35,531 bases of DNA, from positions 1-35,531 of IMG/VR virus record IMGVR_UViG_3300032288_001668; one strand, 5' to 3'. This document shows, piece after piece, positions 1,992 through 32,458 of the stretch. The DNA comes from a virus. The notes under the pieces were generated by a model. The model made no database searches, was not told where the DNA came from, and saw only the letters and a program-made list of their open reading frames with translations. Each line of letters opens with the position of its first letter. Within the stretch, counting starts at the first letter, position 1. Position numbers and translations under genes: made by a program.

Positions 1992-3355
1992 ACATTGAAA
2001 AGATTGTCTTGAAGAATCTGTTCTTAAATGAAGCATACACAAGAAAGGTTCTGCCATTCATCAAAGACGAATACTTTCTTGCTGAGGAAGATAGAACACT
2101 TTTTAAGACAATCAAAGATTTTCTGTTGAAGTTCAACACTCAACCAACGTTTGATGCTTTGCGTCTCGAGGTTGAATCAAAGGAAAATCTAAGGGAAGAT
2201 ACAGTCAATCAAATTGTTACTTCTCTCAAGGAGTTTCATGCTTCCGAAGAGAAGACTAACATTGATTGGCTTGTATCTTCTACTGAACAGTTTTGCCAAG
2301 AGAAAGCAATCTATAACGCCATCATGAAGTCGATTGATATCATGAACAGCAAAGGCAAGGAGAGTAAGGGTGCAATCCCTACTCTTCTTTCTGATGCGTT
2401 GGCTATCTCATTTGATCCTAATGTTGGTCACGACTATCTCGAACAGTATGACGAACGATATGAGTATTATCATCGAGTTCAAGAGAAGATTCCGTTTGAC
2501 CTTGAGTATTTCAATAAGATCACAAAAGATGGATTGCCCAAGAAGACTTTGAACATTGCGTTGGCAGGTACAGGTGTTGGTAAGTCGTTGTTTATGTGCC
2601 ATGTTGCGGCATCATGCCTCAATCAAGGCAAGAACGTTCTGTATATCACCCTTGAGTTGGCTGAAGAAGAAGTAGCCAAGCGTATCGATGCCAATCTCAT
2701 GAACATCTCGTTTGAAGATTTGATGGTATTGCATCAAGACAACTATATGAAGAAGGCTGAGTCAATCAAGAAGAAGACCAATGGCAAACTTATCATCAAA
2801 GAATATCCAACAGCGTCAGCATCAACGATCCATTTCAAGGCTCTGTTGAATGAACTTAGTCTCAAAAAGACATTCAAGCCAGATATCATCTTTGTTGATT
2901 ATCTCAATATCTGTAGTTCAGCACGAATCAAGCCAGGTGGCAATGTCAACTCATATACCTACATCAAGTCAATTGCCGAAGAGCTTCGTGGTCTAGCCGT
3001 AGAGTTTGAAGTCCCGTTGGTGAGTGCAACACAAACGACACGATCTGGTTATGTGAGTTCCGACATCGGTCTTGAAGATACGTCCGAGTCGTTTGGTCTA
3101 CCAGCCACAGCCGATTTCATGTTTGCGTTGATCTCGACAGAGGAACTTGAAGAACTTGGTCAAATCTTGGTCAAACAGTTGAAGAATCGATACAATGATC
3201 CTTCTACAAACAAACGGTTCGTAATAGGTATTGACAGGAGCAAAATGAAGTTGTATGATGTAGAATCTTCCGCACAAGCAGATATCGTGGATTCTGGACA
3301 AGTTCCAAATCAAGTAGAAGCCAAGAATAAGTTCAAAGCATTGAAGGTGGTCTGA
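1988..3355 (+). CDS. Replicative DNA helicase, DnaB/gp41 type
   Basis: This is a 455-residue hexameric replicative helicase of the DnaB/T4 gp41 superfamily, which moves on the lagging strand and pairs with the primase at 32999. The N-terminal 150 residues form the helical domain. The RecA-like core has Walker A at 193-200 (AGTGVGKS), the TLELAEEE strand at 221-228 and Walker B at 300-304 (IIFVD, followed by YLNI). The SATQTTRSG segment matches the conserved DnaB motif after Walker B, and KNRYNDP resembles the arginine-finger region. The length agrees with gp41 (475). The start overlaps the upstream stop and its own stop overlaps the next ATG (TGATG), which indicates an operon. Confidence 0.93.
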   Translation: MNIEKIVLKNLFLNEAYTRKVLPFIKDEYFLAEEDRTLFKTIKDFLLKFNTQPTFDALRLEVESKENLREDTVNQIVTSLKEFHASEEKTNIDWLVSSTEQFCQEKAIYNAIMKSIDIMNSKGKESKGAIPTLLSDALAISFDPNVGHDYLEQYDERYEYYHRVQEKIPFDLEYFNKITKDGLPKKTLNIALAGTGVGKSLFMCHVAASCLNQGKNVLYITLELAEEEVAKRIDANLMNISFEDLMVLHQDNYMKKAESIKKKTNGKLIIKEYPTASASTIHFKALLNELSLKKTFKPDIIFVDYLNICSSARIKPGGNVNSYTYIKSIAEELRGLAVEFEVPLVSATQTTRSGYVSSDIGLEDTSESFGLPATADFMFALISTEELEELGQILVKQLKNRYNDPSTNKRFVIGIDRSKMKLYDVESSAQADIVDSGQVPNQVEAKNKFKALKVV

Positions 3356-25688: not shown

Positions 25689-27914
25689 ATGAAAAAGCAA
25701 CTAACAGTTCCAGCAATAGGTCAAACATTCAGTCGTGGTTTGATGCCTCAGATTGGACCAGAATCAATAAAAGACTTTCAGAAATATTTGAAAGCACACG
25801 GCATCGGTTACAATATGGCAGAGATGCCAACAGGTTCACTAAAAGCAACACAATCAGAATTTGATGGTGCTAAAGTTCTTCAATTGATGGGAACAAAAAA
25901 CAAAGATCCAATCATTGTGTCAAACGACGATCATGTTTTAGATGGACATCATCGTTGGTTAGCAAATCACAACTCAGGTCAAGAAATGACCAAATCATGT
26001 CAAGTCGATCTACCTGTTTTAGAACTCATGCGTGTTGCCAAAGAATACAGAAACAGACTCAACGAAGAACTATCACACAAAGACTTTGGTCCTATGATGG
26101 ACACATTCGTCTCGTTTGCATCTGATAAACTCGGTATCAAATCTATACCAAAAGTCAATTACAAAAACAACGACGATCAAGATGCACAGCCAAGTTTCGG
26201 TGGCTATAATCCATCTTCACAAGAAATAATCGTATGCACTAAGAACAGACATCCAATGGATGTGTTTAGAACTATAGCACATGAACTTGTCCATCACAAA
26301 CAAAATGAAGATGGTAAAATCAAAGACGTATCAAAAGAAGGTTCTACTGGCAGTCCAATCGAAGATGAAGCAAACTTCATGGCAGGCAGACTTCTGAGAT
26401 GGTATGCAAAAGCAAATCCAGGAACGTTTGAACTATCACACATTACTGAAGCAACACTCGATGAAGATTTGAGAAAGTGGTTTCGTGAAAAGTGGGTTAG
26501 ATTCGATACCAAAGGTAATATCAAAGGTCAATGTGCTAGAGATGAAGGTGAAGGCAAACCAAAATGTCTACCTCTAGCAAAAGCAAGAGCACTAGGCAAA
26601 GCAGCAAGAGCCAAAGCAGCAAAGAGAAAAAGAAGGGAAGACCCAGTGGCAGATCGATCAGGCAAAGGCGGTAAGCCTATCAATGTTAGAACAGAATCAG
26701 TCCAAACTGCTATCGATAAAATCAATCGTGATCGAAAGAAAAAAGTTTTGATGGAAAAAAATGTACCAACAAATCCAGAACTTTGGTCAAAAGCAAAGTC
26801 ACTAGCCAAACAAAAGTTTGATGTATATCCATCTGCATATGCTAATGGTTGGGCATCAAAGTGGTACAAAAGCAAGGGTGGTGGTTGGAAATCTAAAGTT
26901 GAAGAAGCAAAGAACTATGATGGTGCTGAAGCAAAACAAACAAGAGCCATCGACAAAGAGTTCACAAAGTTTCTAGAAGAAGATGATTACAGAACAAACA
27001 CATACAATAGAGAATGGGGCACAACATCTCTTGCTAACATGTACAAAAGAGATACTCCTGGTCAAATGGCAGAAGGCATAAAACTGGGTTCAAATACTCC
27101 TGTTTATAGAGAATATGAAGGTATGGGTAGAACAACAGTTGGCAATCTACAAGGTCAAGGTGTATATGAAGCAATAAAAAGAAAAAAGAAAAAGAAACTA
27201 GAAGAAGATGGTGTGCTTGATACTGCATCTGGTGCAGTTGGTCTTCCTGTTTCTGATTCTATTGGTCCTGAGTTTGGTGTTGCTAAGTCTCCAAGTCTAA
27301 TCGGTGGTCTTGTTGGTGTATCTTCACCTGTAACTGGTTTTGGTCCAGCAGGTACCATTTATCCTTATGGCACATATGGTATTGCTGAATCAGTTATTGA
27401 TTGGATGAATAAAGATGATACACAAGCTAGATTTGCCAAGAAATATGGTAATCTTGCTGAACAAAGATTGATTGAGGCTGGTATCAAACTAACAGAAGCA
27501 GATAACAATCAAGAAATCACAAAAATGTCTCGTCCATTCAGTCAAATTCGTGAATCATGGGACGCTAGATATGGTGGTGATAAGTATCAACCAGTTGGTA
27601 TGTCAGCATCTGGTGAGAAATATGTTGATGAAGAATCACCAGCATGGACACGCAAAGAAGGTCAAGATCCAGAAGGTGGTCTAAATCGCAAGGGTATTGC
27701 TTCATATCGACGTGCTAATCCAGGCTCTAAACTCTCGATGGCTGTCACAACTAAGCCTTCAAAGCTAAAGAAAGGTTCTAAAGCAGCAAATAGAAGAAAG
27801 TCTTTCTGTGCTAGAATGGGTGGCATGAAAAAGAGACTTACATCTGCTAAGACCGCAAGAGATCCAGATTCAAGAATCAACAAAGCTCTGCGAAAATGGA
27901 ACTGTGAAGAATAA
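25689..27914 (+). CDS. Multidomain protein: ParB-like domain, HExxH peptidase, small phage modules
   Basis: This 741-residue protein appears to be a fusion of four parts. (1) A ParB/Srx-like domain at about 15-120, with the hallmark DGHHRW at 85-90. (2) A zincin at about 130-245, with HELVH at 198-202 and EDEANFMAGRL downstream giving a possible third ligand. (3) Basic Cys/Trp modules at about 262-405, with REKWVRFDTKGNIKGQCA and YPSAYANGWASKWY. These resemble small domains repeated in T4-like phage proteins (DUF5872 type). (4) A C-terminal module at about 650-741, with RRANPGSKL, RRKSFCARMGG and TARDPDSRINKALRKW (DUF6321 type). It is probably a virion or injected protein; the enzyme activities are untested. 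Confidence 0.8.
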   Translation: MKKQLTVPAIGQTFSRGLMPQIGPESIKDFQKYLKAHGIGYNMAEMPTGSLKATQSEFDGAKVLQLMGTKNKDPIIVSNDDHVLDGHHRWLANHNSGQEMTKSCQVDLPVLELMRVAKEYRNRLNEELSHKDFGPMMDTFVSFASDKLGIKSIPKVNYKNNDDQDAQPSFGGYNPSSQEIIVCTKNRHPMDVFRTIAHELVHHKQNEDGKIKDVSKEGSTGSPIEDEANFMAGRLLRWYAKANPGTFELSHITEATLDEDLRKWFREKWVRFDTKGNIKGQCARDEGEGKPKCLPLAKARALGKAARAKAAKRKRREDPVADRSGKGGKPINVRTESVQTAIDKINRDRKKKVLMEKNVPTNPELWSKAKSLAKQKFDVYPSAYANGWASKWYKSKGGGWKSKVEEAKNYDGAEAKQTRAIDKEFTKFLEEDDYRTNTYNREWGTTSLANMYKRDTPGQMAEGIKLGSNTPVYREYEGMGRTTVGNLQGQGVYEAIKRKKKKKLEEDGVLDTASGAVGLPVSDSIGPEFGVAKSPSLIGGLVGVSSPVTGFGPAGTIYPYGTYGIAESVIDWMNKDDTQARFAKKYGNLAEQRLIEAGIKLTEADNNQEITKMSRPFSQIRESWDARYGGDKYQPVGMSASGEKYVDEESPAWTRKEGQDPEGGLNRKGIASYRRANPGSKLSMAVTTKPSKLKKGSKAANRRKSFCARMGGMKKRLTSAKTARDPDSRINKALRKWNCEE

Positions 27915-30411: not shown

Positions 30412-31014
30412 ATGAAAAACCTCAAGGAAGAAGTTGATATCACACCATATGTTGAAAGAGGTCTTGTTGGAGTCAATGTTGATGCTGTTCGTGACAACAT
30501 CAACACATTTCTGACTGGTTCTTTGAGCAAGTGTTACATTACTCCTTATATTGCCATAGAAAAAATCAGAAAAGTTCTAGCTAACTTTCACATCTTTCTT
30601 CCTAAGACAACCTTTCTTGAGGGTGATCGTGGAGTAGAAGTATTCCAGATCAAGCAATTTGGCGAAGTCATGGGTATGAGAGATAATGGAGAAGTCGTCA
30701 CAAAAGTCGATAATCCATACTCTCTCTACTTTGAATACAAGATGAATGATCGTGGTCTATTCGACGTGTTTGCAGAAATCGTAACACAAGAAGAACTAGA
30801 TGATCTTCTTGATAATGTTGAAGACGATATGAATGATGAAGATATTGAAGATGAGCGTGAAGATAGACTAGACGAAGTTGCTCTTGCTGGTCCAGAAACA
30901 GGCCATAGAAGAATTTCAGGTGCACCAGACAGCGGAATGGCAATGGACTATGATGATTCTGAATCTATGCCAAAGCCAAAGATGAAACTCGTTCTACGTA
31001 AAAAAAAAGTCTAG
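30412..31014 (+). CDS. Acidic late protein, possible frameshift donor
   Basis: This 200-residue protein starts 3 bases after the preceding stop. The first 120 residues look folded (VDAVRDNINTFLTGSLSKCY, EVFQIKQFGEVMGM). A very acidic region follows (EDDMNDEDIEDEREDRLDE), then a basic end, KMKLVLRKKKV. The last codons are AAA AAA AAA GTC TAG in a run of nine A. A -1 slip on this run would bypass the stop and enter the next frame, which is open from 31002 and reads SLDEARGLSKPEL before its first ATG at 31071. Probable virion or assembly protein; the role is unknown. Confidence 0.72.
   Translation: MKNLKEEVDITPYVERGLVGVNVDAVRDNINTFLTGSLSKCYITPYIAIEKIRKVLANFHIFLPKTTFLEGDRGVEVFQIKQFGEVMGMRDNGEVVTKVDNPYSLYFEYKMNDRGLFDVFAEIVTQEELDDLLDNVEDDMNDEDIEDEREDRLDEVALAGPETGHRRISGAPDSGMAMDYDDSESMPKPKMKLVLRKKKV
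31000..31008 (+). promoter_or_regulatory. A9 slippery run, candidate -1 frameshift site
   Basis: Nine consecutive A cover three in-frame AAA codons just two codons before the TAG stop, fitting A-AAA-AAA slippery geometry. A small stem (TCTAG/CTAGA) with a 6-base loop follows. The -1 frame is open for 57 bases before its first ATG. Transcriptional slippage, or a sequencing error in the homopolymer, are alternatives. Confidence 0.5.
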
Positions 31015-31070
31015 ATGAGGCTAGAGGTCTATCTAAGCCAGAACTTACAGCAATTAGACTTGCTGGTAAG

Positions 31071-31592
31071 ATGAAACTTAGAATGAAAAAGAAGAATGCA
31101 AAAATACCACCTGAAAAGATAAAACCTCAAGATAGACCCACTAAACTCAAAGTGAAAAAATCTGCTGAATCTGCATATAAATCCATGCAGGCAGCTATGG
31201 GTAATTTTGATGATCAGTGGAGAGAATCAGAACGAAATAACTCAAATCATGCCAGCAAACAGAACTTAGAAAAGTTTGCTAATCTAGCTGATAAAGAGTT
31301 TATGGCAGCTAGAAAAGCTAAGCCAGATATGGAAAAGTATAAAGTATCTTATAATAAATATCAACAACGAAAAGAAACTATTCGTCGTATGATGAATAGA
31401 TTAGAGAAAAAACTAGATGAACAATCTTTTCTAGCACATATGCCCAGAAGATATCTTGACAAATTTCCAGGTGTCAAACAAGATCCTCAAAAGGCTGCTC
31501 AATATGTGAGAGAAAGAGGAAGAAAAGCAGACGTAGCGAAACACTATATACCTTCACTAAAGAATATTATACCACGTATGAAACCACACTAA
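31071..31592 (+). CDS. Basic late protein, possible frameshift product
   Basis: This encodes a 173-residue basic, helical protein when started at ATG 31071. That ATG has no usable ribosome site: GGTAAG directly touches it. In-frame sequence upstream, from 31011, reads LDEARGLSKPELTAIRLAGK, which looks coding, so the natural product may be a C-terminal extension of the upstream gene through a -1 shift at 31000-31008. The sequence holds MKLRMKKKN, similar to the basic ends of other late proteins here. It then has a helical middle and a C-terminal module (FLAHMPRRYLDKFPGVKQDP). Virion association is inferred from position. Confidence 0.65.
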   Translation: MKLRMKKKNAKIPPEKIKPQDRPTKLKVKKSAESAYKSMQAAMGNFDDQWRESERNNSNHASKQNLEKFANLADKEFMAARKAKPDMEKYKVSYNKYQQRKETIRRMMNRLEKKLDEQSFLAHMPRRYLDKFPGVKQDPQKAAQYVRERGRKADVAKHYIPSLKNIIPRMKPH

Positions 31593-31600
31593 AGAGAATA

Positions 31601-31987
31601 ATGTTTGATGATTTGAATGAAAACAATTTTCTTATCTATGCTATGAAATGCTACAATACTCCAAATTGCATCATGAGCGAATTTGAAGGAGATTTGAAGC
31701 GGATAAAGTATATCAAGAGATTGATTAGAAAATATAAAGCAACTGGTGATTTGAGAGAGCGATTGATACTAAATCATATCATTGTTCTCTCAAATGTGTT
31801 TGGAACAGAAGCAACAGTTAGAATGTTATTCTATAAGATAGACAGAGATGACTATCACATACTGAAAACATTCTTACTGTTTTTGTCTTATATGCCACAA
31901 GTTGTAATTGGTATCAGAGGAAGAAACATCAACTCAAGTGATATCACAGTTGATTTGGATGTAGGTCAAAGACTAAGAAGTATTTAA
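31601..31987 (+). CDS. Conserved T4-like phage protein (DUF7207-like)
   Basis: This is a 128-residue protein opening MFDDLNENNFLIYAMKCYNTP, with the helical core DLKRIKYIKRLIRKYK and RERLILNHIIVLSNVFG and then a hydrophobic helix (LKTFLLFLSYMPQVVIGI). The same sequence pattern is conserved across T4-like phages of marine bacteria, near virion and replication genes, with no known function. It starts 8 bases after the preceding stop, with AAAGAG upstream. Family recognition is from memory and not checked. Confidence 0.75.
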   Translation: MFDDLNENNFLIYAMKCYNTPNCIMSEFEGDLKRIKYIKRLIRKYKATGDLRERLILNHIIVLSNVFGTEATVRMLFYKIDRDDYHILKTFLLFLSYMPQVVIGIRGRNINSSDITVDLDVGQRLRSI

Positions 31988-32050
31988 AGTATTTCATTGA
32001 AACAGGCACACAGCCATTATATACACGTTGTCAAGGGTGTCAAGAGAAAA

Positions 32051-32458
32051 ATGAAGCGATTTGTACGAAAAATAGAGGAAGATGCACCAGCAAATTCTGC
32101 TGGTAGTGGTGGCATTGCTGGTATTGGTGTAGGTCCACAAGGTGAGCCTGGAATTACTCCTTCACGAACAAAATACAAAAAAGATAATGCACTTTTCACT
32201 AAAAAAGTCCTTAGACGCAGATTGCCACAATTGATGACAGGCATGTTTGCTGGCAATCAAACTTTCATAGTTCCTGAATCTGTCTTCTATGAAGTTTCCA
32301 TGGCAAGAAAAGATGGAAAACAGTTGATGGAATTTATAAACGAAACAAGTTGTGGCAAGAGCATATATGAATATGCCAGAAAGAATCCAAAAAAACCTGT
32401 AATACTACAATGCGAGAAAACTGGATCAATGTGTTATGCTAAATACGGAAGCAAGTAA
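32051..32458 (+). CDS. Conserved late phage protein
   Basis: This is a 135-residue protein from ATG 32051, preceded by AAGAGA. An in-frame TTG at 31997 would add 18 residues but has no ribosome site. The N-terminus, MKRFVRKIEEDAP, has the shape of the short leaders seen on packaged phage proteins. A Gly-rich segment, IAGIGVGPQGEPGI, follows and occurs in several T4-like virion-region proteins. The C-terminal part (PVILQCEKTGSMCYAKYG) has two Cys. Its end overlaps the next gene by 23 bases. Probably a virion component; not proven. Confidence 0.7.
   Translation: MKRFVRKIEEDAPANSAGSGGIAGIGVGPQGEPGITPSRTKYKKDNALFTKKVLRRRLPQLMTGMFAGNQTFIVPESVFYEVSMARKDGKQLMEFINETSCGKSIYEYARKNPKKPVILQCEKTGSMCYAKYGSK

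Follow-up and report, generated by a model that had tools for sequence, protein, structure and literature searches.

The best-known cases of frameshifting in tailed phages are the tail chaperones and some coat proteins. Described coat-protein frameshifts include the 10A/10B proteins of phages T3 and T7 and those of Listeria phage PSA (PMC5009743). Frame changes also arise by transcriptional slippage, as in Shigella spa13, Citrobacter tssM and the potyvirus P3N-PIPO (PMC5009743, PMC4256274). In E. coli, slippage by RNA polymerase needs a run of at least eight A (PMC6260861), and the shift rate of A-rich ribosomal heptamers that lack stimulators is well below 1 percent (PMC4066793). A different precedent comes from the T4 head, where an N-terminal peptide of the internal proteins targets them into the prohead and gp21 cuts after L/I-X-E (PMC9026906). 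Among the papers searched, none reports a poly-A junction of the type described here, in which a late T4-like phage gene carries a run of nine A (A9) that is very probably a recoding site of some kind.

The window (the whole stretch of DNA analysed, 35,531 bases) is part of the record of a T4-like phage. Gene A (30412–31014, on the forward strand like the other features of this locus) encodes in the 0 frame a short form of 200 amino acids (MKNLKEEV...LRKKKV) with a conserved domain at about residues 20–158. Its 3' end reads CGT AAA AAA AAA GTC TAG, with exactly nine A at 31000–31008, a 0-frame heptamer A_AAA_AAA inside the run and the TAG two codons past it. The -1 frame is closed just 5' of the A9 run and open from 31002 to 31592 (B, 196 codons), with its stop 8 nt before the next gene. 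This neighbor (31601–31987; phrog_407/DUF7207, T4-like GC 198) served as the syntenic anchor for collecting relatives. Reading through in the -1 frame extends A by 193 residues, including a C-terminal domain (LDEQSFLAHMPRRYLDKFPGVK..., 31413–31589), to an A-B fusion of 393 residues, where the first-pass annotation had estimated about 390. That annotation had also described an A9 run closing the upstream gene, a -1 frame open from 31002 and a late first ATG without a good ribosome site, all of which hold. The ATG is codon 23 of B (31071) and has an SD energy of -2.8 kcal/mol, compared to a median of -5.1 kcal/mol for gene starts in the window. The short protein A, ending in KKKV, would be the main product, and the fusion would come from a fraction of events in which the transcript gains one A or the ribosome slips by -1 on A_AAA_AAA. 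Both products are presumably made, in some ratio.

We compared 30 loci, a few of them near-identical to one another, in which gene A immediately precedes the phrog_407 gene; all sequences were metagenomic consensus contigs, reference phages excepted. In 22 of the 30, the end of the A frame falls somewhere from 11 nt within the next gene to 34 nt before it. In two more (L112:3872–6361 and L114:3119–4279), the region past A forms a gene of its own with an overlapping ATG; the L112 gene starts MKTFSQFLAEE, and the searches made found no similarity between these downstream genes and B. The remaining six (the window, L001, L002, L090, L092 and L099) have an otherwise unexplained gap of 86–586 nt. 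Within the final 20 nt of the A frame, all six carry A9 or A10, followed by an open -1 frame, and in all six the +1 frame closes within 4–10 nt. Gaps before the next gene thus occur in 6/6 loci with such a run and in 2/24 without (Fisher p ~5e-5, relatedness among the 30 loci ignored). Furthermore, the -1 frame runs to within 8 nt of the following gene start in five of the six, and also in L181, a seventh locus with an A9 junction found later; the exception is L092, where it ends 228 nt short.

The junction falls at differing places in the protein among the A9 members. For example, in L090, L092 and L181 the C-terminal domain (LDEQSFLAHMPRRYLDKFPGV) directly follows the A9 run and is read in the -1 frame. 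In the window it shares the frame of the rest of B, and in L006 it continues in frame past a run of eleven A (A11). Because the same domain is in frame elsewhere, the joined protein appears to be the common state, which the A9 members would reach by a -1 shift. The first-pass annotation had proposed -1 frameshifting or polymerase slippage giving a short form and a fusion. The relatives support it: the nearest one keeps both the A9 run and the -1 frame, most others encode one continuous protein, and no stand-alone B gene with a good ribosome site was found.

Comparisons with Pfam and PHROGs returned nothing for A or B, tblastn of A, its relative L068 and B against 50,697 phage records gave no match, and genome contigs yielded no relatives. 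Profile comparison linked A to the gene that directly precedes phrog_407 in phage Melnitz (E 1.6e-8), with a weak link to the corresponding gene in HTVC008M. The 'head protein' p148 of S-PM2 adjoins the same anchor gene and was rejected as a relative, having no visible likeness to A. Among solved structures there was neither a sequence match nor a significant fold match. A 1134-residue viral protein annotated as anti-CBASS Acb1 (A0A6J5LTH6) gave a fold match to the model of the A domain (E 5e-4), a hint of possible fusions between A-type domains and counter-defence cargo.

The number of A9 runs is not in itself evidence of recoding. The window contains one, against 1.8–2.7 expected, so an excess of A9 was rejected as proof. 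This A9 is the sole run of eight or more A within the 35.5 kb, and runs of at least seven are depleted (4 observed, ~14 expected). Across the lysine-rich gene A family, the presence of A9 does not exceed the synonymous-codon expectation (7 versus 5.0, P 0.20), and its position at the end of the open reading frame does so weakly (6 versus 2.8, P 0.03). Three whole related records, gathered by protein similarity of A or its neighbor independently of the run, and the window together contain five runs of at least nine A, four of which lie at the gene A junction. Furthermore, the chance that the -1 frame stays open for ~193 codons past the stop is far below 1e-5 at a stop density of 0.098, a value taken from the -1 frames of genes in two related phages. 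What lies above chance at the window site is the run's place at the end of the reading frame, the long open -1 frame and the conservation of both in relatives.

Similar junctions recur in other proteins. A scan of IMG/VR with the pattern A9GNYTAGANGA returned 63 contigs; in 25, a figure that is not a prevalence because the pattern demands TAG and favors a -1 reading of KKxL, a long 0-frame open reading frame ends in KKK[V/D/A]-stop and the -1 frame continues for 54–839 residues, reading KK[S/R]L[D/E] past the junction. These 25 junctions belong to about eight unrelated phage protein families, four with several members and four with a single member, for which the support is the frame layout alone. 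In-frame homologues are known for two families. The best-sampled family, found on jumbo-size and other contigs, has an A10 site with a KKKV-stop/KKSLDE junction (L116, L119 at position 3056, L123, L125, L169, L187, L194 and L203); L186 clusters with it and L196 is in frame. Its -1 frame is conserved without a start, including 60 codons ahead of any ATG (pN 0.05, pS 0.48). A membrane-anchored family has five shifted members (L157, L163, L166, L176 and L179; ...AESASKKKD-stop/KKRLEE...) and three in-frame members (L168, L174 and L177) with QKK where the shifted ones have KKK. Pelagibacter phage Mosig encodes a distant relative of the N-terminal part of this family.

As to which machine slips, we lean modestly towards RNA polymerase as the main route. 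All the sites carry A9 or A10, above the eight-A threshold for the polymerase (PMC6260861), and this threshold, taken with the low shift rate of heptamers (PMC4066793), favors transcriptional slippage. So does a run kept at 9–10 A in varying codon phases, where seven would serve the ribosome, and so does the want of a conserved SD or hairpin. The families involved point the same way. In a control scan for exactly seven A (at least 120 contigs, at least 19 -1 junctions), 18 of the 19 junctions among the matches listed fell in one tail-assembly-chaperone-like family (assigned by eye), whereas the same strict pattern with nine or more A gave junctions in 17 of 20, from several families. We lean no further because a ribosomal heptamer is present in any A9 too, and because reporters with A8 show little slippage by E. 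coli RNA polymerase, for which reason slippage efficiency could also be low.

Programmed ribosomal -1 frameshifting on A_AAA_AAA/G as the sole mechanism, as in the phage tail-assembly chaperones, is possible, though we consider it the less probable route; a small share of the probability goes to both machines together or to some other route. Each site has a slippery heptamer X_XXY_YYZ in the 0 frame (A_AAA_AAA, or A_AAA_AAG in L092) with a stop within a few codons, and the conserved coding -1 frame without a start of its own is what a -1 frameshift cassette would contain. However, the heptamer does not discriminate, since any A9 contains one. The A7 junctions have a like form (KKD-stop/KKRLEE...), which indicates that A7 followed by GAC TAG can serve the ribosome; L212, L216 and others of this tail-chaperone-like family, with A7-GAC-TAG -1 junctions reading EEAKKD-stop/KKRLEEDSWLFFEFF..., served as a positive control for the scan. 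Stimulators, which are not strictly required, are poorly represented. A strong upstream SD is absent at five of the six gene A-family sites, L099 having an SD-like stretch of -5.1 kcal/mol, and was rejected as a stimulator. The small hairpin after the run, which the first-pass annotation had counted as an argument, was likewise rejected: its stability is ordinary (z -1.05; 31 of 200 shuffles equally stable), and folding was not consistently stable across the six related sites (z -1.65 to +1.1).

Phase variation at the DNA level, in which an A gained or lost between generations would switch the fusion on or off, is unlikely. Nine-base homopolymers are mutable, and homologues occur both in and out of frame, as with the in-frame A11 of L006. 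However, all the -1 sites of the gene A family have a length that needs a shift, and the switched-on length in the same context was not found in related members of the two best-sampled families. Furthermore, the in-frame homologues of one other family differ by QKK for KKK and not by one added A.

Still less probable is that B is a separate gene read from its own ATG, GTG or TTG, or a decaying remnant, and that A simply ends in KKKV. Several relatives have A proteins that end in KKK-stop, a separate downstream gene does exist in L112 and L114, and the SD of the phrog_407 gene is itself weak (-2.9). However, the relatives ending in KKK-stop adjoin the next gene with no extension, and the relatives examined yielded no stand-alone gene homologous to B with a good ribosome site. 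The closest relative, L001, retains both CTACGT-A9-GTC and the -1 frame. The first ATG of its B is codon 90, and the GTG/TTG starts, present from codon 40 on, are weak; yet this B aligns with B of the window from the first codons past the run (KKSQLTEAKGLTKGELKAI versus KKS-LDEARGLSKPELTAI), which makes an independent start unlikely. The first 23 codons ahead of the ATG in the window are also conserved. The substitution rates of the -1 frame between the window and L001 (dN 0.34, dS 0.77; dN/dS ~0.44) and between the window and L090 (dN 0.17, dS 0.66; dN/dS ~0.25), both ratios below 0.5, indicate that B is a protein under purifying selection. An assembly or sequencing error in the homopolymer, a known weakness of some platforms and conceivable in a metagenomic contig, is very improbable given that diverged relatives share the A9 run and its frame relation at two different places in the protein and that eight contigs of another family carry an A10 version.

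The products of gene A may be destined for the phage head. The N-termini of A relatives (MKSFKQFVNEE, MKKFKDFLSEE and MKRFTEYLNED) resemble the T4 internal-protein peptide MKTYQEFIAEA; this capsid-targeting likeness (MKxxxxFxxE type) is clear by eye in several relatives, and the MKNLKEEVD of the window fits it poorly. Motifs of the form [LI][NDEST]E are enriched about threefold in the extensions (25 observed versus 8.3 expected from shuffles). In the window, the LDE motif at residue 153 closes the conserved domain (EDR-LDE/VALA, 30868–30876), the one at 201 falls at the frame change among the first residues read after the shift (KKS-LDE/ARGL, 31011–31019) and the one at 335 precedes the C-terminal domain. 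All are candidate sites for a prohead protease under the L/I-X-E rule (PMC9026906). Furthermore, the records of two relatives encode a gp21 homologue (PF03420, found in those of L001 and L092) and a gp23 homologue in which LNE occupies a propeptide-like position, so that the T4-type pairing of a gp21-type protease with L/I-X-E sites is seen in the relatives' records and the motif enrichment.

Based on the capsid-targeting-like N-termini, the enrichment and placement of the LxE motifs and the gp21 and gp23 homologues of relatives, we propose, at even odds, that A and A-B are a head polyprotein in which the slip sets the amount of C-terminal module that is packaged. The N-terminus would carry A into the prohead as an internal head protein, the gp21-type protease of the phage would cut at the LDE motifs, and the slip rate would fix how many B modules are supplied per A, a role that frameshifting plays for Gag-Pol. 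Two other proteins of the window have related features. A 741-residue protein (25689–27914) with a weak metalloprotease match and a C-terminal DUF6321 contains several K-rich LxE motifs (KKKKKLEED) and is another candidate head polyprotein. The listed TTG start of the gene at 31997–32458 is doubtful, and an internal ATG gives MKRFVRKIEEDAPANS, a capsid-targeting-like N-terminus.

More tentatively, A9-10 followed by G[T/A]C TAG A could be a general recoding cassette, read as KKK[V/D]-stop in frame and as KK[S/R]L[D/E]E after a -1 slip. It would serve unrelated virion-type proteins of T4-like and jumbo phages, act mainly by RNA polymerase slippage and dose protease-released head modules in the manner of Gag-Pol. 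If true, the C-terminal halves of many phage proteins are being overlooked by gene callers, and phages would have a testable mechanism for tuning the amounts of the proteins packed, and possibly injected, with their DNA. Both consequences are tied to the recurrence of the poly-A junction in several unrelated families and to the prohead-protease motifs.

The gene A junction shares features with several known systems. Like the lambda gpG/gpGT tail-assembly chaperone, it would place a -1 shift near the end of a structural gene and give a short and an extended product, and the A7 versions share the KKD-stop/KKRLEE form. However, gene A carries nine or ten A, lacks a stimulatory hairpin and stands among head or virion genes; it has no PHROG or Pfam match that would make it a tail chaperone and precedes phrog_407 and a DNA primase rather than a tape measure. 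As in programmed transcriptional slippage, an A-rich run leads into a -1 frame that extends the protein at its C-terminus, here in a late gene of a double-stranded DNA phage known from its sequence alone. The coat-protein frameshifts likewise add a C-terminal domain to a minority of a head protein, but the major capsid protein is a different one (gp23, encoded elsewhere in relatives) and the extension of A has candidate protease sites. The T4 proteins IPI–IPIII and Alt, with their capsid-targeting sequence and gp21 cleavage at L/I-X-E (PMC9026906), resemble A in the N-termini of its relatives and the LxE enrichment. A differs, as far as its sequence tells, in having a conserved structured domain past the N-terminus and many LxE sites, and in C-terminal modules expressed by a change of frame. 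Although it has no homology to A-B, retroviral Gag-Pol would follow the same proposed logic, in which the shift sets the ratio of a packaged extension that is cut by a protease.
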